64,000 bases of DNA. Origin: a virus. The notes beneath the pieces are model-generated. The model saw nothing but the letters and a program-made list of their open reading frames with translations, did not search any database and had not been told where the DNA came from. Positions within the stretch are counted from its first letter, which is position 1, and every line of letters begins with the position of its first letter. The stretch is from IMG/VR virus record IMGVR_UViG_3300032223_001943, positions 1 to 64,000 of that record, one strand, 5' to 3'. The translations under genes and the position numbers were made by a program. Of the stretch, positions 11,940-53,396 are shown piece after piece.

Positions 11940-14900
11940 TCAATCATTCAAAAGTTTGTTCAATTGTTGTTCAATATCACCTAAAGAATTTCTCGCTTTT
12001 GACAAATCAATGTATTGATCCTCCTCAAATAGATTATCATTTTCTAATAATATGGATAAATTATCCCTAGTTTTACCTTCAGGAGTTACACCCGCTTCAC
12101 CACCAACTTCTGGTCCTGGTATAGGAGGCATTGGAGGTAATCCCATATCACTACCTATACCAGATGGTTCTCCTCCTGGCGGTGGTGGGGGAGTTGCTGT
12201 TACGGATTGTGTACTACCAGTTTTTGTCCCATATAACTTATCGATATTATCAAATAATCCAGTGTGTGTTATAATGGTCGCAGTATTAGTTAACTCGGCA
12301 GCTACCGCCCGTTCAATACGTTGTTGTTGTAAATCTAATTTAATTTCTTCATCTGAAAAACCTAATATATGTTTTTTAGCCCAAGATGCCGACACCGGTG
12401 CAAAAGTGTCTTGTAAAGGTGTAACCGCGTCTTTATACAATAACATTTTTTCCTTCCAAACATCAATTTTTAATAAATCCGCTTGTGATGAGGGATTTGT
12501 TAGATTTAGAGTAAATGAACGTAATTCATCTTCAAAACCTAATAGGAATAAATGTATGATTGCGATCTTATTTAATTCCGCTAATGCACACTTCTGAATT
12601 TTATTAATTGTTCTAGCAAAACGGATATCCATTAATGATAAATCTTTACCACCACCAACTGGTTCTTCAAACCCTAAAAAGGCTTTTGGAACACGTAACG
12701 CCGTTAATAATTTTTTCTGAATATATTCAATATCTGAAATTTCTCCAAGGTTGCTATTTTTAATGAAAACCCCCGATTCGACAGCAAAAGTGTGGAAATT
12801 ATGGTATAATTCATCCCCATCTACCGTTATTGTTCCGGTGTCCATTCTATCATTTAAGTACTCAATCGCAACAATTTTGTGGTTATAAAGAATTTCAGAT
12901 TCTGTTTTGTTTTCTTTTACAATATAATATCTCCACGCACGTAAATTTTTATAACCTATTTCATTCGCGGTTGTTTTTGACCAATCTCTGTAGTTTTTGA
13001 ATCCACGTTCTTTTAACATCTTTTCAAGATGGTTGTGTGTGAATTTTTCAAGATTGGTTAATGAACTTCTAATTTCTAAGTTTGTGTTCACAAACTCGTT
13101 CATAAAATCGGTTGAATTGTTTAATTCAATTAAAGCTAAGTCGGCACGACCAGTTTTATTGAACATATCAAAAAACATTTGGTAAAGTTCTTCAGTGAAT
13201 GTTAGAGTTTGTTTTTTAGAAAAAACTTTTTCTTTATATTCATTAACTTCCCACATTTGTTTTGAAATTTTAGAAAAATTTTCCTTAAACTCAATTGTGG
13301 ATTTAACCTCACTAATTCGTTCACCTCTTTTTTTAATGATTTCAATTTTATTAGGACTATTATTAATAACCTCGTTAATCACCGCTTGATGGTATTTAAA
13401 GTGATCTTGATTATTCATCCACACAATATTTGATGGATTATTATTAAATCTATTAAAATCCTTATGGTGTCTAACTTGTTTAGTGTTGTTAACGAATTTT
13501 TCTTCATGAATCATTTCACCAATAACACCAAATTGATCTAGATGGTCAACCACAAATCTATGTGTGAATACCCATTCTTGTTTTTCAGTATCCCAAACTT
13601 GTTCATATTCATTACTTTTTTTACTAATACGTTCATTACGTTTATAAAACGGCATTAATGAATCACCAACAACTAAATCTTGTGCTTCAACAAATCCTTT
13701 TGTTCTATGAACCCACTTATGGTCTGGGGTTGTGGTAATTGATTCCCCATTATCCAATGTGATTTTAATAACTTCAGCATCTTTACGAGTAGTCCCCGCC
13801 CATGTTATCATACCTGGTGCTAATTCACCAGTTTCAGGGTTACAAGAATAAACCCATAAATCACGATTTCCGTTATCCCATTCTTCGATTATTTGTTGTA
13901 ATTCTAACACTCTACCATCCAATAATGGAATTCTCGTATCTAAAGCAATACAAGCCCCTGGTAGAGTTTCAATTGGTGATGGCGACGTTGGGTCACGAAC
14001 TGGAATAAAGTAGTCTTGATCTACCGCCATTTGGTTAAAACGCATATCAACATTCCCTGTTGCCGAATCAACCACTTGGTCTCGTTTGAACTTATTTGCA
14101 ACACGTTGTACATATGGTTCAACATCTTTATCATCCATATTACCAACAAAAACCTTAAATACTCTACGTTCAGGTGCTCTACTAGTTCGGTAGATTAACA
14201 TGGCGTCCTCAGCTAAACAATTGTGTACAACTGAACCATTTGCGATAAAATTATGTAATTCAGATTCAACCTCCAAGTCCCAAACTGGTTCATCATCATT
14301 TTCAGTTATGTCAATAATCTTTTCAAATGATACATTATCAAGTGAAGGTATTACTAAGTTATCTTCATCGATTTTTATTTCATTTAACGTCTTATATTCA
14401 AAATCACCATCACAATAAACAAGTACTTGATGATCATCTGTTATATCAATTGAATTGTATCTTGTTCTAACATTAAATGTTTTTTTAACGCCACTTTGCC
14501 AACAATCTTTAACCTTCGTTGAAATTAATTCGTTATTATTAAAATCATATGAATAAATTATCTCACCCGATTTAATATCTTTAATCATCTTATAACCATC
14601 GATTGTCCAAACTTTTGTATTTTCACTAACACACAATTGTTTCCACACACGTCTAGCCTTCTCTAACATTGACGTGCCATATGGCAATTTTCGGTCATCC
14701 CCCAATAATCTAAAGTGGGCAATTTCCCAAGTATTAAACTCCATATCTTTAGCCTTCCACTTGAATCTAAGACCTTTATTTTCAATTGGTTCGTCGGTAT
14801 TAATACTTTTGGCTGCCATTCCACGTTCAAACCGTTCAATTTCAATGTTTGGTAATTGAGTACAACCGATAATACCTTTTTCTGGATCTAATTTAAGATA

Positions 14901-16337
14901 AACGAAGTTATCACCATATTTGGTCATATTACGAATCCACATTGGTAGATTTGTATTAATATCTAATGAATTGTTGAATAAATCGGCTAATACCGACTTA
15001 ATACGTTTTGATTCGGAATATATTTGTAACATGAAACCGTTTTCATCAACCGTTGTCGATTCTTCGGAATAAATGTCCAATGCTGCGGATATTTCCGGAG
15101 TGTTATGTGAAAATATGGTGTCTGTTGCGAAATTTTTATATCCAGGTACTGTTATATCATAAACTGGTACAACACCAAATGGTTCAATTGATACGATTTT
15201 ATGGTTAATTGCTAATTGATCCCCCTTCGCTTTAGCTGTGGAGTATTTAGATTTCTCAATTTTATACGCTTCCAAGAATGTCGACCAATCTTTATAACCG
15301 GCATTAACAATGTCCCGTTGAATTTTTACATGTGATACACCTAAAGCGACCGCTGTCTTTTTTAATGTTTTATGTTGTCTTGCGGTTTCGATGATGTTAT
15401 CAAAAGGAATACTAAAATACACAGGATTATTTTCTTTTGCTCTACGTCCATCCCAACTAAAATTCTTTTTTGAACGAGCAACAATCTTCATTTTTTCACG
15501 ATATTCAGGATTACCCCATAATTTTTCGTTATTAATTTTCGCGTGATACGATTGGTGTTCAAACTTATCCATAATAAGTAGATTCTCTGGGTTATTATTT
15601 TTCCCGTTAAAATCACGATGATGAACAACTTCATTAGATTCAAGTGGTCTGTAAAACCACTCGGCTATTAAATTATGTTCGGACACCCACCCATGATGAC
15701 CAACTTTACTATTACAACTATACACCCAATGATATTTATCTTTATCATAAAATGATTTTCTATAAAAAGGCATCATTGAATCACCAGGTTTTAGGTTCAT
15801 AACACGTTCAAACGAACCATCACGCATCATCAATTGATGTTCCCATGTTGCGATGATATGATTACCATCGTCAAATGTTATTTTATAGGTCATTTCATCC
15901 CTAGTGTAGTGAGCATTTCTTGCTTTTGCTGGTATTACACGTTTTTCATTGTGATCATATGAATAAACGATAAATTCGTTATCCCTACCTTTATCCGCAA
16001 GTTCTTTAATTGTGATAAACCCATCTGGTGTTGCGATTTTTGTATCACCATGCAAACAAAACTCCATTGATTCCAGATCGAAGAATGTTGCCAATCTTGT
16101 TGGTTCATAATATACTGCTTGGGAATATAGGTTAGTTTCAATCTTCGCCCATTGATTCCCTAGGAAATAGGTTTGTTGTGCTTGAAGTTTTTCACGTTCG
16201 TATTCTTGTTTTGACGTGGTTTTTAATAGTTCAGTTTTGTCAAACTTATATGTTGGGTAATCCTGGTTCAGTAATGAATTGGGACCAAATGCCTTGGTCA
16301 GTCGTTGCCATACCGTTAAATTTTTATCTTGTTCCAT
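11940..16337 (-). CDS. 20: Portal protein (T4 gp20-like) precursor with three inteins
   Basis: 1465-aa precursor. Removing three inteins leaves extein segments 1-93, 413-568, 707-795 and 1195-1465, a 609-aa portal. Junctions rejoin conserved gp20 sequence: SMEF/TPEISAALDIYSEE, WKQL/CLAEDAMLIYRTSRAPE and ETLPGA/SNLGEISDIEYIQ (T4 has WRQL.MIED...YR.TRAPERR and DTLPGA). The portal forms the 12-subunit DNA entry ring of the capsid. The mature C-terminus is Pro/Gly-rich (about 1370-1410 of the precursor). Each splice must work for a functional capsid, so assembly may be gated by splicing. Upstream is the late-type box 16367-16374 and then terminase. Confidence 0.92.
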   Translation of the reverse strand: MEQDKNLTVWQRLTKAFGPNSLLNQDYPTYKFDKTELLKTTSKQEYEREKLQAQQTYFLGNQWAKIETNLYSQAVYYEPTRLATFFDLESMEFCLHGDTKIATPDGFITIKELADKGRDNEFIVYSYDHNEKRVIPAKARNAHYTRDEMTYKITFDDGNHIIATWEHQLMMRDGSFERVMNLKPGDSMMPFYRKSFYDKDKYHWVYSCNSKVGHHGWVSEHNLIAEWFYRPLESNEVVHHRDFNGKNNNPENLLIMDKFEHQSYHAKINNEKLWGNPEYREKMKIVARSKKNFSWDGRRAKENNPVYFSIPFDNIIETARQHKTLKKTAVALGVSHVKIQRDIVNAGYKDWSTFLEAYKIEKSKYSTAKAKGDQLAINHKIVSIEPFGVVPVYDITVPGYKNFATDTIFSHNTPEISAALDIYSEESTTVDENGFMLQIYSESKRIKSVLADLFNNSLDINTNLPMWIRNMTKYGDNFVYLKLDPEKGIIGCTQLPNIEIERFERGMAAKSINTDEPIENKGLRFKWKAKDMEFNTWEIAHFRLLGDDRKLPYGTSMLEKARRVWKQLCVSENTKVWTIDGYKMIKDIKSGEIIYSYDFNNNELISTKVKDCWQSGVKKTFNVRTRYNSIDITDDHQVLVYCDGDFEYKTLNEIKIDEDNLVIPSLDNVSFEKIIDITENDDEPVWDLEVESELHNFIANGSVVHNCLAEDAMLIYRTSRAPERRVFKVFVGNMDDKDVEPYVQRVANKFKRDQVVDSATGNVDMRFNQMAVDQDYFIPVRDPTSPSPIETLPGACIALDTRIPLLDGRVLELQQIIEEWDNGNRDLWVYSCNPETGELAPGMITWAGTTRKDAEVIKITLDNGESITTTPDHKWVHRTKGFVEAQDLVVGDSLMPFYKRNERISKKSNEYEQVWDTEKQEWVFTHRFVVDHLDQFGVIGEMIHEEKFVNNTKQVRHHKDFNRFNNNPSNIVWMNNQDHFKYHQAVINEVINNSPNKIEIIKKRGERISEVKSTIEFKENFSKISKQMWEVNEYKEKVFSKKQTLTFTEELYQMFFDMFNKTGRADLALIELNNSTDFMNEFVNTNLEIRSSLTNLEKFTHNHLEKMLKERGFKNYRDWSKTTANEIGYKNLRAWRYYIVKENKTESEILYNHKIVAIEYLNDRMDTGTITVDGDELYHNFHTFAVESGVFIKNSNLGEISDIEYIQKKLLTALRVPKAFLGFEEPVGGGKDLSLMDIRFARTINKIQKCALAELNKIAIIHLFLLGFEDELRSFTLNLTNPSSQADLLKIDVWKEKMLLYKDAVTPLQDTFAPVSASWAKKHILGFSDEEIKLDLQQQRIERAVAAELTNTATIITHTGLFDNIDKLYGTKTGSTQSVTATPPPPPGGEPSGIGSDMGLPPMPPIPGPEVGGEAGVTPEGKTRDNLSILLENDNLFEEDQYIDLSKARNSLGDIEQQLNKLLND
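12756..13952 (-). mobile_element. Portal intein 3 (399 aa, HNH endonuclease)
   Basis: Precursor residues 796-1194. Block A CIALDTRI, block B SITTTPDHKW, HNH core RHHKDFNRFNNNPSNIVWM, block F/G LYHNFHTFAVESGVFIKN, then Ser as first extein residue. The penultimate residue is Lys rather than the usual His, so Asn cyclisation may be slower. The segment about 200-350 holds a HEG-type DNA-binding region. Confidence 0.9.
14220..14633 (-). mobile_element. Portal intein 2 (138 aa mini-intein)
   Basis: Precursor residues 569-706. Block A CVSENTKV, block B SIDITDDHQVLV, block F VWDLEVESELHNFIANG, ending VVHN, with Cys +1. No endonuclease domain; the length is that of a minimal splicing domain. It is inserted in the conserved RRVWKQL/C-LAEDAM motif. 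Confidence 0.92.
15102..16058 (-). mobile_element. Portal intein 1 (319 aa, HNH endonuclease)
   Basis: Precursor residues 94-412. Block A CLHGDTKI, block B HIIATWEHQLM, HNH core VVHHRDFNGKNNNPENLLIM, a helix-turn-helix-like KKTAVALGVSHVKIQRDIV, block F VPVYDITVPGYKNFATDTI, ending SHN, with Thr +1. Confidence 0.92.
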
Positions 16338-24930: not shown

Positions 24931-25224
24931 ATGATTGAATCAACAGATAACGACGGACGCGGTAGTAAGAATAAGAATTCTTCAGAATCTTCAACTCCAG
25001 TTTTAGATAACTTCAGTAAAGACCTTATTAAATTAGCCGAGCAAGGTAAAATTGATCCGGTTATTGGTCGTGAAAGCGAAATAACCCGTATCGCACAAAT
25101 ATTATCTAGAAGAAAAAAAAATAATCCAATCATAATTGGTGAACCAGGATGTGTATTGGGGGATACTTTTATCGAAGTTGAAAAAGTATCGGAGGTTAGT
25201 TCACATAATATTGAATTAATGTAA
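24931..25224 (+). CDS. clpC: Clp ATPase, N-terminal fragment fused to a 24-aa N-intein
   Basis: 97 aa from the ATG at 24931. Residues 26-73 are the start of a ClpA/B/C D1 domain ([48 protein letters not shown]). The classic N-terminal repeat domain is absent. At the Walker A motif the sequence switches to [13 protein letters not shown], an intein block A, and ends after 24 intein residues. The C-terminal intein half and the rest of Clp are encoded at 26430. Trans-splicing would rebuild GEPG-CGKT, with Cys (+1) in place of the usual Val. Confidence 0.88.
25150..25221 (+). mobile_element. N-terminal half of an atypically split intein (24 aa)
   Basis: [20 protein letters not shown] then IELM. 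Block A only. Known atypical split inteins (e.g. AceL-TerL) have N-halves of about 25 residues, so this length is credible. Confidence 0.85.
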
Positions 25225-25232
25225 TATTTATT

Positions 25233-25254
25233 GGTGTGGGTATTTCCCCACACC
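25233..25254 (+). promoter_or_regulatory. Hairpin just upstream of the endonuclease ATG
   Basis: GGTGTGGG/CCCACACC 8-bp stem, 6-nt loop, ending 9 nt before the ATG at 25264. No T run, so not a standard terminator. It may limit translation of the endonuclease, as hairpins do for some T4 intron endonucleases. Confidence 0.5.
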
Positions 25255-25263
25255 TGGTATTAT

Positions 25264-26433
25264 ATGGAAATATTATATAGAAAAAAGGTGATATCCGAAA
25301 TTTGTGTTTATAATGAATTAGAAAAATTCATTATTGATAATTCATTTTACAAATATTTCAAAAAATTCCCGAATGAAAAAATCACCGAAATTCAAGAAAT
25401 GATTGAAAAAACAAATTCACTGTCATATAAAAATATTAAACCTTGGTTAAAAACAATATTAAAATACCCCGAATCTATTAATGATAAAAAATTTCTTTTA
25501 TGTATGGGGTGGGATGAAGATGAAGTTGTTAAATTTATTAGTGACAATCAAAAAAACAATTCTAAAAAACTTATAATCAAAAAAACAGAATCCCCCGAAA
25601 AATATTATAGTACTAACCCTAAAAGGGTGGAATATTGGATCAATAAAGGATATTCAATTCATGACGCTAAAATAAAAGTATCTGAATCACAACGAACCTT
25701 TAGTAAAGATATCTGTATTAAAAAATATGGTGAAATAGATGGGTTACATATCTTCAATGAACGACAAACAAAATGGATTAAATCGTTAAATAATTTAGAA
25801 AATTATGATGATATTCAGAAGTTAAAAAATTCATACGATTATAATAAAAAGTCAACCCAGGAATTAATAGACCGATCTTCATTTATTGAATCAACTAAAT
25901 TTATAATAAGTGAAGGGGTAAAATTAAAAACGATAACAGAATTCATTGAATTTGTTTTAAGTAAAGTTGATTATAAAACATTCAATGATATTCAACCATA
26001 TATTACTAGTAAAATAATCCAAAACCATTTTAATATTAATAGTGAAGGTATTAAACATATTTTTTATGAACTAACATCACACAATTTAATTCGGTCATTA
26101 TATGGGACTCCGGTTTATCACAACGGTATTAGATTTAAAAGTGTTAAAGAGTATAAAATTGCGTTATTATTAGAATATAAAAATTTGGAATATATTTATG
26201 AAAAAGGTTATCCAAATAGTAAATATAAATGTGATTTTTATATACCTTCAAAAGATTTATATATTGAGTACTATGGTATGTTAGATGGTAAAAATTTTGA
26301 AAAATTAAATAATAATCAAATATATTATTTAGATAAAATGAATGATAAAAATCGTTATTGTGAATTAAACAAAATAAATTTGATTTATGATACCGATTTT
26401 AATAATCTTTATAAAAGAATAAATAAATTATGA
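25264..26433 (+). CDS. Homing endonuclease inserted between split-intein halves
   Basis: 389 aa from the ATG at 25264; a TTG at 25231 in frame is inside the hairpin region. Middle: YWINKGYSIHDAKIKVSESQ ... YGEIDGLHIFNERQTKWIKS, a DNA-binding region I recognise from phage endonucleases. C-terminus: FKSVKEYKIALLLEY, then YKCDFYIPSKDLYIEYYGM, a Vsr/PD-(D/E)XK-like nuclease core with Asp and Glu. The stop overlaps the ATG of the C-terminal Clp half (ATGA). Very AT-rich compared with clp, as expected for a recent insertion. Confidence 0.8.
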   Translation: MEILYRKKVISEICVYNELEKFIIDNSFYKYFKKFPNEKITEIQEMIEKTNSLSYKNIKPWLKTILKYPESINDKKFLLCMGWDEDEVVKFISDNQKNNSKKLIIKKTESPEKYYSTNPKRVEYWINKGYSIHDAKIKVSESQRTFSKDICIKKYGEIDGLHIFNERQTKWIKSLNNLENYDDIQKLKNSYDYNKKSTQELIDRSSFIESTKFIISEGVKLKTITEFIEFVLSKVDYKTFNDIQPYITSKIIQNHFNINSEGIKHIFYELTSHNLIRSLYGTPVYHNGIRFKSVKEYKIALLLEYKNLEYIYEKGYPNSKYKCDFYIPSKDLYIEYYGMLDGKNFEKLNNNQIYYLDKMNDKNRYCELNKINLIYDTDFNNLYKRINKL

Positions 26434-26828
26434 AAATTAAAATTAAAGATTTTTTTGACCTAGTTGAGTCGGAGGGAGGGTCTTATAAAATCAAAACCCC
26501 ATCTGGTTATAAATTAATTGGTAATTTATATAAAAAATTAAATAAGGAATGTATTAAAATCACATTATCCAATGGAATGGAGTTGTCTGGTTCTATTGAT
26601 CACCTTGTTGAGGTTTCTAAATCAACATTAAATCCAACAGTTGTTTTTGAAAACGAAGCACTATGGATTAGTTTAGGTAATATTACTGAAGGTGAATTTA
26701 TCTACACTGAAGATAATGAACTTGTTGAAATTGTTAAATACGAAGAAATTGGTATTCATAATACTTATGACCTTGAAGTATTAGACACTGAACGTAAATA
26801 CATTTCCAACGGAATTGTATCACATAAT
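26430..26828 (+). mobile_element. C-terminal half of the split intein (133 aa)
   Basis: Block B-like GSIDHLVEVSK, block F NTYDLEVLDTERKYISNGI, ending VSHN, then Cys +1. It has its own ATG, overlapping the endonuclease stop. Confidence 0.9.
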
Positions 26829-28670
26829 TGTGGAAAAACCGCGATTGTTGAAGGTCTAGCGATCAAAATATTAAATGGTGAGTGTCCTAGAAATTTAATG
26901 GATAAACGTATCGTATCATTGGATATGACTTCAATTGTCGCTGGGACAAAATATAGAGGTCAATTCGAGGAACGTATGAAGGTTATCATTGAGGAGTTAC
27001 AAGCAAACCCAGATATCATCGTTTTTATTGATGAAATCCACACCATTGTTGGTGCGGGAAACACATCTGGAACAATGGATGCTTCTAATATCTTCAAACC
27101 AGCATTAGCTAGAGGTGAAATACAATGTGTTGGTGCAACAACATTGGATGAATATAGGAAGAATTTTGAAAAAGATGGTGCATTGGAACGTAGATTCCAA
27201 AAGGTGATACTTGATTCCACAACAAAAGAACAAACATTGGAAATTCTTAAAAACGCAAAAGAACGATATGAAAATTATCATAAGGTAATATATAATGATG
27301 AAATCTTAATCACTTGTGTTGAACTAGCTGAACGTTATATCACCGATCGTGAATTCCCAGATAAAGCTTTTGATATTTTGGATGAAGTTGGAGCTCGAAG
27401 TCAAGTTGAGGTTAAGATGCCAAAAGTGATTGAGGATCTTAAACAAGAGGCGAAACAAATTAAAGTTGAAAAAATTAGTGTTGTTAAACGTCAAGACTAC
27501 GAAGAAGCAGCAAACCTACGTGATAAGGAAAAACGTGTGTTAAATAAATTGGATAACGAGAAAAAGAAGTTTGAAGAAGAATTAAATAAAAACAAACGTG
27601 AAATTGCGGTTGAACTTGTTTATGAAGTTGTATCTAATATGACAAAAATTCCAATTTCAAAATTAAACTCGGATGAAGCAAAACAACTTATTGGTCTTGA
27701 AGATGCTTTAAATCAAAAGGTTATCGGTCAATCTGAAGCGGTTAAGAAAATTGTTAAGTCAATTAGAAGAAGTAGAATCGGAATTAAAGACCCAAATAAA
27801 CCTATAAGCTACATCCTATTGGGTCCGAGTGGTGCTGGAAAAACACATTTAACAAAAGAATTAGCAAAACAAGTTTTTGGTAGTGAAGATGCGTTGATTA
27901 GAATTGATATGTCAGAATATCAAGAACAACATTCAATTTCAAGATTAATCGGTTCACCCCCAGGATATGTGGGCCATGAAGAAGGTGGTCAATTAACTGA
28001 ACAAGTTAAAAACAAACCTTATTCTGTTATTTTATTAGATGAAGTTGAGAAGGCGAATAAAAACATTTATCAAGCGTTCCTACAGATGTTGGATGATGGT
28101 CATTTAACGGATGGTTTGGGTAGAAAAATCAATTTCAAAAATTGTATTGTTATTATGACTTCAAACTTGGGGGTTCGTAAACTACAAGAATTCGGTACTG
28201 GTATGGGATTCTCAACGGGGGATAAGAAATACGCTGAGGAGGAACAAAAACGTGAGATCTTGAAAAAAGAGTTACAAAAATTCTTTGCACCAGAATTCCT
28301 TAATAGAATTGATGAAGTGATATTCTTCAACAAATTATCAAAAGAAAATGTTAAGGAAATCGTTAAACTTGAGGTGGAAAAATTAATCCAACGTATTAAG
28401 AAAATTAATTATCACTTCTTAATTGACGACAGTGTTGTTGAACTTATCGCTGAGGTTGGGTTTGATGAAAATTATGGGGCAAGACCACTTAAACGAGCAT
28501 TACAAGATAAGGTTGAGGATTATATTTCCGAAGAAATCTTAAATGGTATTATTAAGGAGGGTCAAGAATATAAAATTATTGCGGTGAATGGTGAAATACA
28601 AATTGAACAACCAACCGAACAAATAATTGAAAAACCTAAAAGAGGTAGAAAAAAGAAGGGGGACGAATAA
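26430..28670 (+). CDS. clpC: C-intein fused to Clp ATPase C-terminal fragment
   Basis: 746 aa: residues 1-133 are the C-intein, 134-746 the Clp remainder. Clp part: CGKTAIVEGLA (end of D1 Walker A), VFIDEIHTIVGAG (Walker B), GATTLDEYRKNFEKDGALER (sensor), a short UVR-type middle region (RQDYEEAANLRDKEK), D2 Walker A GPSGAGKTHLTKELAKQVFG, Walker B VILLDEVEKANK, and the C-terminal GARPLKRALQ sensor 2. The spliced product is 686 aa, ClpC-like without the N domain. It would unfold proteins for a host ClpP or rescue aggregates with the phage DnaK and Hsp20. Confidence 0.92.
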   Translation: MKIKIKDFFDLVESEGGSYKIKTPSGYKLIGNLYKKLNKECIKITLSNGMELSGSIDHLVEVSKSTLNPTVVFENEALWISLGNITEGEFIYTEDNELVEIVKYEEIGIHNTYDLEVLDTERKYISNGIVSHNCGKTAIVEGLAIKILNGECPRNLMDKRIVSLDMTSIVAGTKYRGQFEERMKVIIEELQANPDIIVFIDEIHTIVGAGNTSGTMDASNIFKPALARGEIQCVGATTLDEYRKNFEKDGALERRFQKVILDSTTKEQTLEILKNAKERYENYHKVIYNDEILITCVELAERYITDREFPDKAFDILDEVGARSQVEVKMPKVIEDLKQEAKQIKVEKISVVKRQDYEEAANLRDKEKRVLNKLDNEKKKFEEELNKNKREIAVELVYEVVSNMTKIPISKLNSDEAKQLIGLEDALNQKVIGQSEAVKKIVKSIRRSRIGIKDPNKPISYILLGPSGAGKTHLTKELAKQVFGSEDALIRIDMSEYQEQHSISRLIGSPPGYVGHEEGGQLTEQVKNKPYSVILLDEVEKANKNIYQAFLQMLDDGHLTDGLGRKINFKNCIVIMTSNLGVRKLQEFGTGMGFSTGDKKYAEEEQKREILKKELQKFFAPEFLNRIDEVIFFNKLSKENVKEIVKLEVEKLIQRIKKINYHFLIDDSVVELIAEVGFDENYGARPLKRALQDKVEDYISEEILNGIIKEGQEYKIIAVNGEIQIEQPTEQIIEKPKRGRKKKGDE

Positions 28671-28689: not shown

Positions 28690-29487
28690 TTAAACCAAAA
28701 TAGATTTTAACGGGTATAATTTACAACCCAACTTTTCAATCATATTTTTTCCAGTTTTAATTCCATTAAACACATCTTCAACAACAACGTATTCATTTTT
28801 AGTATGGTAGTTATAATAACCGATTGCGAAGTTAATACAGGAGAAGTTATATTTACGTTTTAGAGCCATAACATCTGTATATGGGTGTGATTGATAATCA
28901 TTTCTACTATTAAATCCTTCAGTTAATACATTATCACAAACATTAAAGAATTCACTATCCCTATCAAACAATTGAACCCCCCAACAATATTCGGTAACCA
29001 TGGAATTTCCTGGTGCATCAAACTCAATAACATATCCGACGTTTTCAAAAAATTCATCATCGGCATTCATTGATCCGTGACAACCGGTTTCTTCGGATAC
29101 AAATAAAGCGACCTTTAAGTTTGGTAGTTGATCCAATAATGTTAAACACGCAAATACACCGCATTTATCGTCACCCCCAATTCCGGTGGGGTTGTTATCA
29201 TCATTATATGCTTTTAAGGCAAGTTTGATTTCCCCTTGTTCATTTGGTAGTTGTTCTTCAACGATGTTTATTGTATCGATATTATGAACGGTATCGGTAT
29301 GTGCAACAACGCATGGGAAGTATTCAACATCATCTGTTTGTTTGGTGATGTATACATTATTCATACCATCCAGATAATATTCATATTTTTTTTCATGAAG
29401 ATAATTCACCAAAAAATTGATCATCATGGTTTCTCTATAGGTTTTTGTCGGAATGGACAAAACTTCCTTTAATAATTTCGTTTCCAT
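28690..29487 (-). CDS. M20-family peptidase (PepT/ArgE-like)
   Basis: 265 aa. Metal-binding motifs VVAHTDTVH, GIGGDDKCGVFA, and VSEETGCHGS with the Glu-Glu general base, and YHTKNEYV near the C-terminus. It is shorter than cellular M20 enzymes (about 370-410 aa) because the lid/dimerisation domain appears reduced. Predicted to hydrolyse short peptides. Convergent with clp; its ATG follows a TATATTTG box by 4 nt. Confidence 0.85.
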   Translation of the reverse strand: METKLLKEVLSIPTKTYRETMMINFLVNYLHEKKYEYYLDGMNNVYITKQTDDVEYFPCVVAHTDTVHNIDTINIVEEQLPNEQGEIKLALKAYNDDNNPTGIGGDDKCGVFACLTLLDQLPNLKVALFVSEETGCHGSMNADDEFFENVGYVIEFDAPGNSMVTEYCWGVQLFDRDSEFFNVCDNVLTEGFNSRNDYQSHPYTDVMALKRKYNFSCINFAIGYYNYHTKNEYVVVEDVFNGIKTGKNMIEKLGCKLYPLKSILV

Positions 29488-29516: not shown

Positions 29517-31217
29517 TTAAAAATTTATTTTCACTCCTGGTAAAGTTTGGTTGGATATTGGATTTCGTTGTAGGGTTATTTTGAATGTTGGGTTTAATTT
29601 CAATTCTGCGGTTGTAATAATCTTTTGAGTACCATTTGGAAGTACGGGTAAACCGAATAAATCAATTTTCAATTTTGAATCCGTTGGTGTGTTTAATACC
29701 GTTTCTAGATTTAAGGTTGGTTGTTTTGGATTTTGATTATTATAATCATTAATCATCTTATTAAGGTTACCGATTGGTTCTTGTTTTGAAGTTGGTTTTA
29801 AGGTATCCATAAATTGTTTGACCAATATTTTATCACGATTGTTATTTAGTTGTTCATTGATTATTTTCGTATGATAATTCTTTAATCCTTCAAACAATTC
29901 ATATTGGGTTAAGAACCTATTAAATTCATCTGTTGTTAATGAACGAGTATCTTTTTTACTACCATCTGGATTATATAATGATACGACTATTTTATTTGTT
30001 TTTTCATCCACACCATCAATAACAAATGTTCGTTTTTCAGTTTTATCACGATCTAGTGGATATAAATTATATACACCAATTTTATATTTTGATGTTATAT
30101 AATCATAAGTTGTTTTACAACCAGAAAAGTCGGTATATCGTTCTTCAAACGCTTCTTCCATTTTTGAAATCCAATCCTCCGCGTCGTTATTAAATCGTTC
30201 AGAATTAAAATCACCTTGATATGGGTATTCATAAGATATTTCAGAATTGATGCTATACCCTTTTTTTTCAACCAATCGTTTAAGGATTTCAAAAATCGTT
30301 AAGTCTTTATCTTTAAACCAATTAACCATCAACCTTAATAGAATGTTAACACTAGTGACATACTTATACATTGGACTTTGCTCCATTATCCCATAATTCG
30401 AAAAAGGATCACCAAAATCTTGTTCAATTAATTGTTCACTATATTGATTACCAGCAATGTTAATTTCATTAACATAGTCTTGACACAACCCCTCAACTTC
30501 TTCTTCAAAATTATCATGTAACAATGTAGAAATCACAATTTCATCATTAAGTTCGATTTTTGGATCGATCATGTTAACTAAATTGTTTATTCGTTCCCTA
30601 TTTTCATCATTTAAATATGGAAGAATATACCCTTCATTCCATTCATTACTAACAATACCATAACCGCTCATGAATTCATAACCTTCATACCCTTGAATAT
30701 TATCAATAAACCAACGATCGTCAGGGTCAATCTCAAACATATCAAAAAAATCATCTTCGGAGTCAAAAACTATTATAACTTTTGATAAAAGTGGATTTTT
30801 TGGGTTGGTGTGTATATCATAAATTAATTTATCATAATCATTATATGATCTATAGTCCACTTCTTCACCTCTACCTATTTTTGTTAACAGTTGATATAAC
30901 TTCCCATAACCGGTAATATTCTTCTGGATGAAATTAAAGTCAGTAAATTCATTATATTCCAATTCTGACTTAAATTCATTTTTTTCAACATCATCAAAAT
31001 CTTTATTATAATATTTAACATTTCCCTGTTTATCCTTGTATATAAACCAGCGATCATTCCCATTAATAATAATATAAAAATCACCATTTCGGAAGACTTT
31101 TCCCCAATCATCTATTAATTCTTTTTCAATATCCTCTGGGGCGTATCGTTCAATATCTTCTTTTGATTGTACGTCGACAATCATCCATCCGTCCTGGTCA
31201 TATATGATATTTTCCAT
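29517..31217 (-). CDS. Large hypothetical protein
   Basis: 566 aa, acidic, aromatic-rich. The N-terminal 200 residues hold repeated W-F-I/D-x-W words (DRWFIYKDKQGNVKYYN, DDRWFIDNIQGYEG). The C-terminus (about 470-566) is a Lys/Pro/Thr region with LPVLPNGTQKIITTAELKLN. QLIEQ and INEQL are possible prohead-protease sites. The late-type box at 31236-31243 suggests a late, possibly virion, protein. Confidence 0.6.
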   Translation of the reverse strand: MENIIYDQDGWMIVDVQSKEDIERYAPEDIEKELIDDWGKVFRNGDFYIIINGNDRWFIYKDKQGNVKYYNKDFDDVEKNEFKSELEYNEFTDFNFIQKNITGYGKLYQLLTKIGRGEEVDYRSYNDYDKLIYDIHTNPKNPLLSKVIIVFDSEDDFFDMFEIDPDDRWFIDNIQGYEGYEFMSGYGIVSNEWNEGYILPYLNDENRERINNLVNMIDPKIELNDEIVISTLLHDNFEEEVEGLCQDYVNEINIAGNQYSEQLIEQDFGDPFSNYGIMEQSPMYKYVTSVNILLRLMVNWFKDKDLTIFEILKRLVEKKGYSINSEISYEYPYQGDFNSERFNNDAEDWISKMEEAFEERYTDFSGCKTTYDYITSKYKIGVYNLYPLDRDKTEKRTFVIDGVDEKTNKIVVSLYNPDGSKKDTRSLTTDEFNRFLTQYELFEGLKNYHTKIINEQLNNNRDKILVKQFMDTLKPTSKQEPIGNLNKMINDYNNQNPKQPTLNLETVLNTPTDSKLKIDLFGLPVLPNGTQKIITTAELKLNPTFKITLQRNPISNQTLPGVKINF

Positions 31218-31235
31218 TTTCTAAATAACTTTTAT

Positions 31236-31243
31236 AATAAATA
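31236..31243 (-). promoter_or_regulatory. Late-type motif TATTTATT before the 566-aa gene
   Basis: TTAATATTTATTATAA, 18 nt before the ATG. Confidence 0.45.
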
Positions 31244-31276
31244 TTAAACCTTCTTGATATATGTCAATATTTATTA

Positions 31277-31284
31277 TATATTTG
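31277..31284 (+). promoter_or_regulatory. TATATTTG promoter box of the tmRNA gene
   Basis: Plus-strand TATATTTG, 31 nt before the mature 5' end, leaving a short leader for RNase P removal. Confidence 0.6.
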
Positions 31285-31315
31285 TATTATAAATGAAACC
31301 GTTCATTGAATTATT

Positions 31316-31700
31316 GGGAGGAATTTGGCTATTGACTGGCATGGTTAGTTGTTCGGGGCACGCAGTGAAATGATATCTATCACTTAAATCCATGGTATCG
31401 ATCTACAAACGGCAACGTTTTAAACAAACTTTCTAAAATCGGATTAATCCGTGAAGAAGAAGTTGTAGTAGCTTAAGAAGTTATAACAACGCGGGTCGGA
31501 GTACATACACCCAGGAACAGAAGTACCTATAAAGACGGAAAAACGATCGAGTCAGGAAATCGGATCGTCCATTGGTTGTCATAGTTACGATGGTGAAGAA
31601 CAAAATGACTATTTCCGGAATGTTAGAAAATATTGTCCTAAGCGTGTAGTCCTTAATGGTTAAGATGACCAACACACGGGATCGTTACCCGTTCCTTCCA
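31316..31700 (+). ncRNA. ssrA: tmRNA (transfer-messenger RNA)
   Basis: 385 nt, a normal tmRNA length. 5' GGGAGGA pairs with 3' TCCTTCC (31693-31699) as a 7-bp acceptor stem with one G-U; discriminator A at 31700, CCA not encoded. The 5' domain TTTGGCTATTGACTGGCA and GGGGCACGCAGTG match the conserved Bacteroidota tmRNA start (UGGCUUUGAC ... GCAUGCAGUG, from memory). The T arm is ACGGG-ATCGTTA-CCCGT next to the acceptor. A tag frame (31450-31476) ends GTAGTAGCTTAA. A terminator follows 8 nt later. It would rescue stalled ribosomes and tag the released peptide. Confidence 0.88.
31450..31476 (+). other. tmRNA proteolysis-tag reading frame
   Basis: CGT GAA GAA GAA GTT GTA GTA GCT TAA gives (A)REEEVVVA. 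The five bases before it, TAATC, match the TAGTC determinant before the E. coli resume codon. Bacteroidota hosts normally use GENNYALAA-like tags, so this tag is divergent but keeps a hydrophobic tail ending in Ala. Confidence 0.7.
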
Positions 31701-31707
31701 CAAAAAT

Positions 31708-31743
31708 GAAACCCCATTCTTAATAAGTTTGGGGTTTTTTTAT
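31708..31743 (+). terminator. Repeated terminator, copy 3 (after tmRNA)
   Basis: Same stem-loop as 24104-24136 in inverted orientation, followed by TTTTTTT and then a TATATTTG promoter. Confidence 0.88.
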
Positions 31744-31751
31744 TATATTTG
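31744..31751 (+). promoter_or_regulatory. TATATTTG promoter box, 4 nt before ATG (member 4)
   Basis: TATATTTG-TTTT-ATG at 31756. Confidence 0.65.
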
Positions 31752-31755
31752 TTTT

Positions 31756-32130
31756 ATGGATGATAAATTGAAATATAAGATTAGGACATCGGTTGAAAAG
31801 TTGGGTATTATACAAGCTAGAGAATTATTTGGTGATGAACTTATAAAACAATCGTATGTCGATAACCCAGAATCTTATTTGGTTCAATTTAAGAATTTAA
31901 GAAAAATTGAAGATTTATTTATCAATTATATAACTAACCATAATGATGAGTGTGTTGTTTTTTTTTATAACCCTAATAATAAACGTATTTTTTTCAATAA
32001 TACTTTAGTTTGGGATTTTTTTTATGAAATCATGGATTATAATCAAAAAGAAATTGAAAAAATCTTAAGAATTTGGTTGGATGAAAATTATAATATAAAA
32101 TATTCTTTACCTGTTAAAATGATCCAATAA
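31756..32130 (+). CDS. Hypothetical protein, paralogous family member 4
   Basis: 124 aa from the ATG at 31756 (the frame is open to 31729, inside the terminator). Contains LGIIQARELFGDELIKQSYV, NPESYLVQFKNL, and the tail MDYNQKEIEKILRIWLDENY. Upstream block nearly identical to that of member 3. Function unknown. Confidence 0.75.
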   Translation: MDDKLKYKIRTSVEKLGIIQARELFGDELIKQSYVDNPESYLVQFKNLRKIEDLFINYITNHNDECVVFFYNPNNKRIFFNNTLVWDFFYEIMDYNQKEIEKILRIWLDENYNIKYSLPVKMIQ

Positions 32131-51198: not shown

Positions 51199-53396
51199 TT
51201 ATTTCACTTCCTCGTAGTCAACATCTGAAAATTCATCACCTCCGGTCGTGTTTTCGGAATTCGTTTGTTCAGACAATACTTGTGTGATTTCATTGAATTT
51301 ACCATTAAGGTTATCAATCTTATTCTGGATGTTTGTAACATCTTTATTATTGTACGAATCCTTTAATTCCGTAATTAACGTGTTAAGGTCAGTTTTTTGT
51401 TCTTCGGTTAATTTATCTTCAATATCTTTTACCGATTTTTCAGATTGGAATATCACACCATCCGCTTTATTTAACAACTCAACTTCTTCACGTAGTTTAT
51501 TATCCGCGTCAGCATTCGCTTCAGCTTCCGCCTTCATTCGTTCAATTTCTTCTTTTGATAACCCAGACGAAGCTGTAATAACGATTTTTTGTTCTTTACC
51601 TGTAGCTTGATCTGTTGCACTAACATTGATAATTCCATTTGCATCCACATCAAAATTTACGGCTATTTGCGGTACCCCTCGTTGTGCTGGTAAGATACCA
51701 TTCAATTGGAATTTACCAATAGTTTTATTATCTGCCGCCATTGGTCGTTCACCTTGTAGTACGTGAATATCCACCGCGGATTGGTTATCTGACGCCGTTG
51801 AGAATATTTGTGATTTTTTGGTCGGAATTGTTGTGTTAGCATCAATTAATTTCGTAAATACACCGCCCATTGTTTCAATACCCAATGATAATGGGATAAC
51901 ATCTAATAATAACACATCTTTAACATCCCCAGCTAGTACACCACCTTGGATTGCAGCACCTAACGCTACTACTTCATCCGGATTAACCCCTTTTGATGGT
52001 TCTTTACCGAAGAATTTTTTAACCGCATCCTGGATTGCAGGAATTCTTGTTGAACCACCAACTAAAATCACTTCATCAATATCGCTAGTTTTTAATCCGG
52101 CGTTATCTAATGCCGTTTGACAAGGTTTAATTGTTCTGTTAATTAATGATTCACACAATTGTTCAAACTTCGCTCTAGATAAAGATAATACCAAGTGTTT
52201 TGGTACACCATCAACTGGCATTAAATAAGGTAAATTAACTTCCGTTGTTAATGAAGATGATAACTCAACTTTAGCTTTTTCTGCGGCTTCTTTTAATCGT
52301 TGTAACGCCATTGGATCTTGACTAACATCAATACCATTTTCATCCTTAAATGATTCAACCAAATAATCAATAATAACCTGGTCGAAGTCATCCCCTCCAA
52401 GGTGGGTATCCCCATCTGTCGATAATACTTCAAAAACACCATCCCCTAATTCAAGGATTGAAACATCATGTGTTCCCATATGTTATCGTTAAGCTCTTTA
52501 TCTTAACTTCTTATATTTTCATATAAGTTCAGACTATATCTTCACTTTTACAAGTGATCGGTGTTCGTGGTTATTTCATCTTGTTTAAGACTACTTTAAC
52601 TAGTCGTTGAACGTTCATCTTATCACTAAGACGCTTCGCTGCGGATTGCCCAATGTTAATCTATTTTACCATACCCAAATCATTATATTTGGCCACAAAA
52701 TGTATCACTACTTTTGCTTGGTTGATCAACCTCTAAGGGGTTCCCCGTCAATTAACCGATTTTTAATTATTTCTTTTGTTAGTTTAAACAAAAGGCGGAG
52801 GCAGATAACAGTTTACCACCGCAGTCAAAAACGACAATTTTTGCGTCTTTTGATTTTTTATCTAAACCATACGCTAACGCTGCAGCTGTAGGTTCTGAAA
52901 TTATACGTCTAACATTAAACCCCGCAATTTCCCCTGCTTCTTTTGTTGCTTGACGTTGTGCGTCATTAAAATATGCTGGTACTGTAATAACCGCTTCAGT
53001 GATTGTTGTCCCCAAATAATCTTCAGCCGTTTTTTTCATCTTTTGAAGAATTGTCGCTGAAATTTCTTGTGGTGAATATTCTTTACCATCAATTGACACT
53101 CTAGGTGAATTTCCACCCCCTCTAACTACCGAATAAGGTACGCGTTCAATTTCACTTTTTGATTCGTCAAAAGTTGTTCCCATAAAACGTTTAATTGAGT
53201 AAATCGTTTTTGTTGGGTTAGTGATTGCTTGTCTTTTCGCCGGATCACCAACTTTACGTTCATCATTTACAAACGCTACCACTGAAGGTGTCGTCCTTTT
53301 CCCCTCACTATTTGGAATGATAACAACATCATTACCTTCCATAACAGCACAAGCGGAGTTTGAAGTTCCTAAATCTATACCTAAGATTTTTCCCAT
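51199..53396 (-). CDS. dnaK: Hsp70 chaperone DnaK, interrupted by a group I intron
   Basis: Exon 1 is 53396-52815 (194 codons), exon 2 is 52476-51199 (425 codons plus stop), giving 619 aa, full length. ATPase domain: [20 protein letters not shown] (phosphate 1), [18 protein letters not shown] (phosphate 2, across the splice), [13 protein letters not shown] (adenosine). Substrate domain: [20 protein letters not shown] then [11 protein letters not shown]; lid and acidic tail ending DVDYEEVK. The usual DLGGGTFDVS is DCGGGTHDVS here: Leu to Cys and Phe to His, both close to the intron. No DnaJ or GrpE in the window, so it may use host co-chaperones. Confidence 0.95.
52477..52814 (-). mobile_element. 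Group I intron in dnaK (338 nt, no ORF)
   Basis: Exon 1 ends TGCGGTGGT; intron begins AAACTG. P1: exon GCGGTGGT pairs with intron GCCTCCGC (52796-52803) with a U-G wobble at the splice site. The core contains TTCAACGACTAG and GAAGATATAGTCTGAAC, matching TCAACGACTA and GAGATATAGTCTG of the T4 td intron (group IA2). The intron ends with G (CATATG/GGAACA). Removing it restores the DnaK frame exactly. No endonuclease is encoded. Confidence 0.93.

Follow-up and report, generated by a model that had tools for sequence, protein, structure and literature searches.

A 64,000-nucleotide stretch of viral DNA (IMG/VR record IMGVR_UViG_3300032223_001943, positions 1 to 64,000; hereafter the window) carries at 31316-31703, on the plus strand, a gene whose sequence confirms it as a tmRNA of the phage. 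It belongs to a new family of phage tmRNAs with a long, selected, non-host tag that is tied to a phage unfoldase. The identity of the RNA, the frame of its tag, selection on the tag peptide and the linkage to a Clp gene are established from sequence, and trans-translation with a private phage tag is, on the same grounds, well supported. We call these phages T4-like because the window encodes a Gp20 portal and a Gp23 capsid protein. The reading that we favor, and to which we give about an even chance, is that of a working tmRNA whose tag would be a private degron, most likely read by the linked phage ClpC.

The earlier note on this DNA had proposed a phage-encoded tmRNA at 31316-31700, which is borne out by a full-length match to the Rfam tmRNA model and by covariation in relatives. 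Of the two programs suggested there as a check, Infernal gives that match (cmscan over 31200-31800: RF00023 positions 1-374 of 374 on 31316-31703, E 2.5e-11) with a score of 32.4 bits, below the curated gathering score of 47 bits, and ARAGORN is blind to the gene, a tRNA-Ser being all that it reports for the window. With the curated threshold applied, Rfam likewise lists no tmRNA in the window. An nhmmer profile built from related phage tmRNAs, the window's own sequence among them, matches 31316-31702 at E 2.7e-92. A chance match of the RF00023 model is ruled out by its E-value and by the covariation. The acceptor stem, T arm, tag frame and terminator that the note had described were all located, the last at 31709-31741, along with G3:U70, P2 and PK1-PK4; the CCUAAGCGUGUAG motif, the tag frame and the terminator are visible on inspection of the sequence itself. 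The gene, its parts and its flanking signals are these:

31254-31284 (+): Bacteroidota-type promoter, TTG (~-33) at 31254-31256 and TATATTTG (~-7) at 31277-31284 (TTGATA..TATATT, spacing 17)
31301-31309 (+): boxA-like leader element GTTCATTGA, GTTCTTT[AG]A in relatives (from motif counts in relatives)
31316-31703 (+): one-piece tmRNA gene with 3' end ACAA, CCA only partly encoded (RF00023 full length; family nhmmer profile)
31316-31322 (+): 5' strand of the acceptor stem, GGGAGGA, pairing with UCCUUCC at 31693-31699 (7/7 pairs, with G3:U70)
31358-31363 (+): 5' strand of P2a, GCACGC, pairing with GCGUGU at 31642-31647 (100% of cells paired, two-sided changes at 2 pairs)
31364-31399 (+): PK1, 31364-31368/31380-31384 and 31372-31377/31394-31399 (compensatory changes at 9/11 pairs)
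31411-31476 (+): tag reading frame GNVLNKLSKIGLIREEEVVVA with its stop (PK1 spacing, invariant A at -4, conserved peptide)
31493-31526 (+): PK2, 31493-31496/31509-31512 and 31501-31504/31523-31526 (two-sided changes at 4/8 pairs)
31534-31568 (+): PK3, 31534-31536/31551-31553 and 31543-31548/31563-31568 (98-100% of cells paired, two-sided changes at 5/9 pairs)
31569-31609 (+): PK4, 31569-31572/31590-31593 and 31578-31582/31605-31609 (S1 100% and S2 75% paired, two-sided changes at 3/9 pairs)
31676-31692 (+): T arm, ACGGG-AUCGUUA-CCCGU, stem 5/5 (98% of cells paired, two-sided changes at 4/5 pairs)
31709-31741 (+): rho-independent terminator AAACCCC...GGGGTTTTTTT (read directly from the sequence)

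Relatives were collected by scanning IMG/VR with a 15-base motif and then running ARAGORN; since chance could give a comparable number of 15-mer matches in so large a collection, each match was checked by structure and tag. Together with a degenerate tag pattern, this gave 124 unique full-length tmRNAs in all, and the tags collected comprise 98 different DNA sequences and 71 different peptides. The family is easy to overlook, as ARAGORN detects only 32 of the 124 members. G3:U70 is kept in 122 of the 124 unique relatives. The structure was assessed through covariation because single-sequence folding, in which the window's RNA has no excess stability (z -0.6), cannot model pseudoknots. Among 40 diverse members, 89% of the cells in P2a, PK1, PK2 and the T arm are paired, and two-sided changes occupy 120 cells against 35 in shuffled controls and no more than 40 in slid ones; for the full helix set, scored in 17 members nearly all of which have the window's PK3/PK4 type, the paired fraction is 93% and two-sided changes number 70 against 22 in shuffled controls. 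The pseudoknots sought between the tag and the T arm are thus present and backed by compensatory changes in relatives. As a separate observation, columns ~230-320 of alignment A3 hold two alternative PK3/PK4 sequence modules, variously combined with the rest of the RNA, which look as if they had been exchanged by recombination.

The tag frame opens at the resume codon GGC at 31411, 11 nt past the end of PK1 at 31399, and closes with the TAA stop at 31474-31476. In E. coli, too, PK1 and the resume codon are 11 nt apart, and there is a dependence on A86 at -4 (PMC2481249). We set the opening at 31411 on this spacing, on the corresponding A at -4, which is invariant in the alignment of 40 sequences, and on the conservation of 21 residues. 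The full tag so predicted is (A)GNVLNKLSKIGLIREEEVVVA, 21 residues ending in VVVA; written as a C-terminal sequence it is AGNVLNKLSKIGLIREEEVVVA. The tag (A)REEEVVVA given earlier proves to be only the C-terminal end of this peptide, as PK1 spacing and the tags of relatives contradict the short frame; on the same evidence a start at CGT 31450 is ruled out. ARAGORN itself calls such long tags in the relatives that it can recognize, GNVLNKMATIGLIREDAAVAA and GETIAKLQAVGLIRTEEVTVA among them, and the tag most similar to that of the window is GNVLNTLSKIGLIREEEVVVA in L012.

The peptide is conserved with synonymous changes across the 98 unique tag DNAs. For the 81 distinct 21-codon tags, pN/pS (uncorrected, pooled pairwise and from related sequences) is 0.55 when read in the tag frame, as against 0.80 and 1.21 for the two alternative frames, and drops to 0.29 at tag residues 11-14, while third codon positions vary most (permutation p 1e-4). 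G1, G11 and A21 are invariant, each with 2-3 codons, and R14 is retained in 77 of the 81 through both CGN and AGA codons. Judged from these patterns, the tag is under selection at the peptide level, strongest at G-L-I-R.

Tags read from Bacteroidota genomes are of the GENNYALAA, GNNYDYALAA and GDNTYAMAA kind, and the readable ones among those checked have 9-10 residues, bar one doubtful ARAGORN frame. The earlier suggestion that the phage tag is unlike Bacteroidota tags is upheld by this comparison: with its 21 residues and VVVA end it falls outside the host class of 9-10 residues ending in ALAA or AMAA. The window's RNA shares with the Bacteroidota ssrA RNAs (RF00023) the one-piece layout, G3:U70, the conserved 5' and 3' ends, PK1-PK4 and a GGN resume codon with E or N as the next residue, but most of its body is not alignable with theirs, and its family has tags of 21-22 residues with a V-x-A end. 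A degenerate pattern of the tag finds at least 119 stretches in the viral contigs of IMG/VR and 0 matches among 84,980 species of bacteria and archaea, each represented by one genome. By these searches, tmRNAs with this 21-22-residue tag form a family of their own that is confined to phages, and the diversity of its 71 tag peptides indicates that it is old in phages. The annotated phage collection has no record matching the window tmRNA.

The host is very probably a member of the Bacteroidota, judging from the promoter type and from the kinship of SmpB. TAnnTTTG occurs upstream of 99 of 123 related tmRNAs (10.8 in shuffles), and 98 of those 99 also have TTG in the -33 region, a combination that we take to be the Bacteroidota promoter consensus. 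The SmpB encoded by one relative (L262:3139-3591) has as its 25 first-listed relatives only Bacteroidota SmpBs, 50-57% identical. The terminase is at most 30% identical to that of any known record; Flavobacterium phage immuto, one of those matched, shows no tmRNA. The leader element GTTCTTT[AG]A lies no more than 30 nt upstream of the gene in 75 of the 123 related tmRNAs (0.04 in shuffles), and a looser boxA-like form that covers the window's precedes 103 of them; by analogy with the rrn boxA consensus, we infer that it could act in antitermination. The terminator at 31709-31741 is missing from the list of the consensus scan, its loop being too long.

Upstream of the tmRNA the window encodes three proteins that recur in the family:

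26430-28670 (+): ClpC-type AAA+ unfoldase, C-terminal part, with the C-part of an intein (Pfam AAA_2, AAA_lid_9, ClpB_D2-small)
28690-29487 (-): M20-like peptidase (PF01546 at E 3.8e-5, slightly below cut-off; phrog_4191 peptidase at E 6.8e-37)
29517-31217 (-): fast-evolving 566-aa protein, a constant neighbor of the tmRNA (homolog in 113/144 tmRNA loci)

That the phage has a ClpC-like unfoldase, as first noticed from the open reading frames, holds on its Pfam domains and on ClpC as its nearest PDB chains, with an alignment that starts at ClpC residue 149. In common with ClpC (PDB 6em9; 3j3t) it has both AAA+ modules, the middle region and the ClpP-docking loop [VIM]GF, in agreement with the ClpP-binding pattern [LIVM]G[FL]; it differs in lacking the N-domain, full-length relatives starting just before AAA1, and, in the window phage, in being interrupted by an intein. 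A Clp homolog is present on 50 of 50 large tmRNA contigs, in one case only as a fragment at the contig end and otherwise mostly at 64-78% identity, and it is upstream of the tmRNA on the same strand in 66 of the 67 loci whose sequence extends far enough, with a median gap of 2.4 kb. Viewed in reverse, the tmRNA is downstream of Clp in 63 of the 79 closest Clp loci; of the other 16, 15 hold at most 3.4 kb after Clp, and only L373 is clearly without a tmRNA.

The conserved block runs u411, u250, u80 (-), Clp (+), M20-like peptidase (-), fast-evolving protein (-), tmRNA (+). The M20-like peptidase is found in 111 of 144 tmRNA loci, many of which are short. The 566-aa protein matches no Pfam or PHROG family, its AlphaFold model (mean pLDDT 72) has no fold match, and a direct search of viral contigs yields no relatives, its homologs being found through synteny only; the constancy of its place points to a function alongside the tmRNA or Clp. 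Longer relatives of this protein (L222, L233) carry an N-terminal YGxxTxWC motif. The M42 peptidase, DNA methylase and 2-hydroxyacid dehydrogenase encoded near the window tmRNA occur in no other tmRNA locus and hence lie outside the module. ClpP is encoded on the record of the window phage (G000:114993-115517) and in 9 of 50 relatives, whose records are fragments. No SmpB was found on the 123-kb record of the window phage, so the host SmpB presumably serves it; 4 of 50 relatives have their own, near the tmRNA in three (L262, G003, G011).

The window also holds inteins and a group I intron. The ClpC gene is broken at the first Walker A motif (25000-26828) by a sequence resembling a naturally split intein, with a very short N-part of 24 aa and a C-part ...SHN|CGKT within the ORF at 26430-28670 (Pfam Intein_splicing, E 0.0013); between the parts lies a separate 400-aa ORF (25231-26433) that matches no Pfam family and is possibly a homing endonuclease. 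The Clp gene of a relative, on the L021 contig (G008:45240-49270), seems to bear inteins too, one match including the intein part of the window and a second stretch being 29% identical to it. The Gp20 portal gene (11940-16337, 1465 aa) bears at least one HNH-endonuclease intein, besides a second stretch that is HINT-like, and a group I intron (RF00028, 79 bits) lies at 52510-52824 on the minus strand.

On the reading of a private degron, the charging of the RNA, its use of SmpB, recognition by Clp, degradation and the benefit to the phage would run as follows. The tmRNA would be transcribed from its host-type promoter and charged with alanine by the host AlaRS via G3:U70. With SmpB, supplied by the host here and by the phage in some relatives, it would enter stalled ribosomes, replace the broken mRNA and add (A)GNVLNKLSKIGLIREEEVVVA to the nascent chain. 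The tag would act as a phage-private degron of about twice the length of the host tag, with its hydrophobic and G-L-I-R core and V-x-A end recognized by the N-domain-less ClpC. This unfoldase would feed the products to ClpP, either that of the host or, in the window phage and some other members, a phage-encoded one, and the adjoining M20-like peptidase may finish the peptides, which suggests peptide recycling. Recognition by ClpC is proposed from the linkage, from the absence of the N-domain and from tag distances that correlate weakly with Clp distances. No N-domain is required where pore loops read the tag, as in ClpA. After correction for the RNA body and M20, tag distances track Clp distances with a partial r of 0.21 (0/300 permutations), while the partial correlation with M20 distances is 0.03; the former is weak and may reflect only that Clp is the least noisy marker. 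The linkage across the family strengthens the idea, put forward in the earlier note, that tagged peptides are redirected to the phage ClpC. Against the private-degron reading stand the low counts of ClpP (9 of 50, in fragmentary records) and of SmpB (4 of 50) among the relatives. The host ClpXP might, moreover, read the tag as well, since the V-x-A end resembles LVA-type E. coli degron variants.

It is possible, if on balance doubtful, that ribosome rescue alone is needed, for instance upon mRNA cleavage in infection. The tag would then lead to ClpXP or further proteases of the host, and the Clp linkage would reflect shared gene order. Rescue is the general function of tmRNAs, other phage tmRNAs can have host-like tags (e.g., ANSKNASAYALAA in Streptomyces phage Faust), and the tag ends in A, mostly with V before it. 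Moreover, the whole block around Clp is conserved, and a gene order kept within a single phage lineage could tie Clp to the tmRNA without functional coupling. However, rescue alone would make a 21-residue peptide needless, yet this peptide is under purifying selection that is tightest mid-tag, and it is absent from the 84,980 cellular genomes searched. We regard as unlikely that the tag is no degron and instead protects or redirects, hiding proteins from host ClpXP or serving as a binding or targeting helix: its length, conserved hydrophobic pattern and lack of the LAA/MAA end would fit, host tags by contrast ending in ALAA or AMAA, but its conserved neighbors are a Clp unfoldase and a peptidase, and small C-terminal residues are typical of degrons. 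Quite improbable, too, is an origin of tmRNA and tag in an unsampled host clade. Many freshwater Bacteroidota are without genomes and the RNA is similar to Bacteroidota tmRNAs at its 5' and 3' ends, but against this stand the empty search of species representatives, the short tags of the Bacteroidota checked and the 71 tag peptides of a family old in phages.

In its T loop the window copy deviates from the consensus, which also counts against the private-degron reading: AUCGUUA combines U54A with A58U where relatives mostly have UUCRANN, and an exact-pattern search for a T arm like it found no other copy. The combination is not unique to the window, as the T loops of L202 and L205 are AUCGUGA. 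That the copy is decaying, or is a decoy titrating SmpB as one account proposes for the TLD-only RNA of phage DS6A (PMC4131195), is highly improbable, for the odd T loop and the score below the Rfam cut-off are set against a full-length structure, an intact tag frame, a promoter and a terminator, and the paired U54A/A58U change, present in those two relatives with intact tags, resembles covariation. Separately, the 484-kb phage record LR756508.1 has a tmRNA-like gene at 92434-92880 (L463); another match of 112 nt, at 414804-414915 (L466), also exceeds the RF00023 cut-off and is perhaps a form without a tag domain.

Phage tmRNAs as such are already known, usually listed as annotation: one survey is cited for 402 of 18,146 phages (PMC9004378), another account for mycobacteriophages and Bacillus phage G (PMC4131195), and a third reports huge phages that carry both tmRNA and SmpB (PMC7162821). 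The carriers include mycobacteriophages Bxz1, Catera and others, methylophage Melnitz and Streptomyces phage Faust, whose tag is host-like, unlike those of the window family. The annotated tmRNA of Maribacter phage Panino, which overlaps two tRNAs, was left out of the comparison. A linkage of tmRNA to Clp does not appear in the parts consulted of published accounts of other phage tmRNAs (PMC9004378, PMC4131195, PMC7162821). A private tag with its own protease is known as well, from Mesoplasma florum, where a long ssrA tag is read by the bacterium's own Lon (PMC9382460). The likeness lies in the long divergent tag and in a protease other than ClpXP; that pair is bacterial and uses Lon, and here a phage ClpC-type unfoldase would be the reader.

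A private, selected tag beside a private unfoldase in a diverse environmental family makes the purpose of a phage tmRNA testable, with ribosome rescue, amino-acid recycling and control of the host proteome as candidate uses. Should tag and unfoldase form a pair orthogonal to host ClpXP, they would also make a useful tool for degradation. For the phages themselves, we tentatively propose, at somewhat less than an even chance, that this T4-like family runs an orthogonal trans-translation with a private tag and a phage ClpC reader, by which the output of stalled ribosomes would be kept from host ClpXP and passed instead to an unfoldase, a peptidase and an amino-acid supply under phage control.
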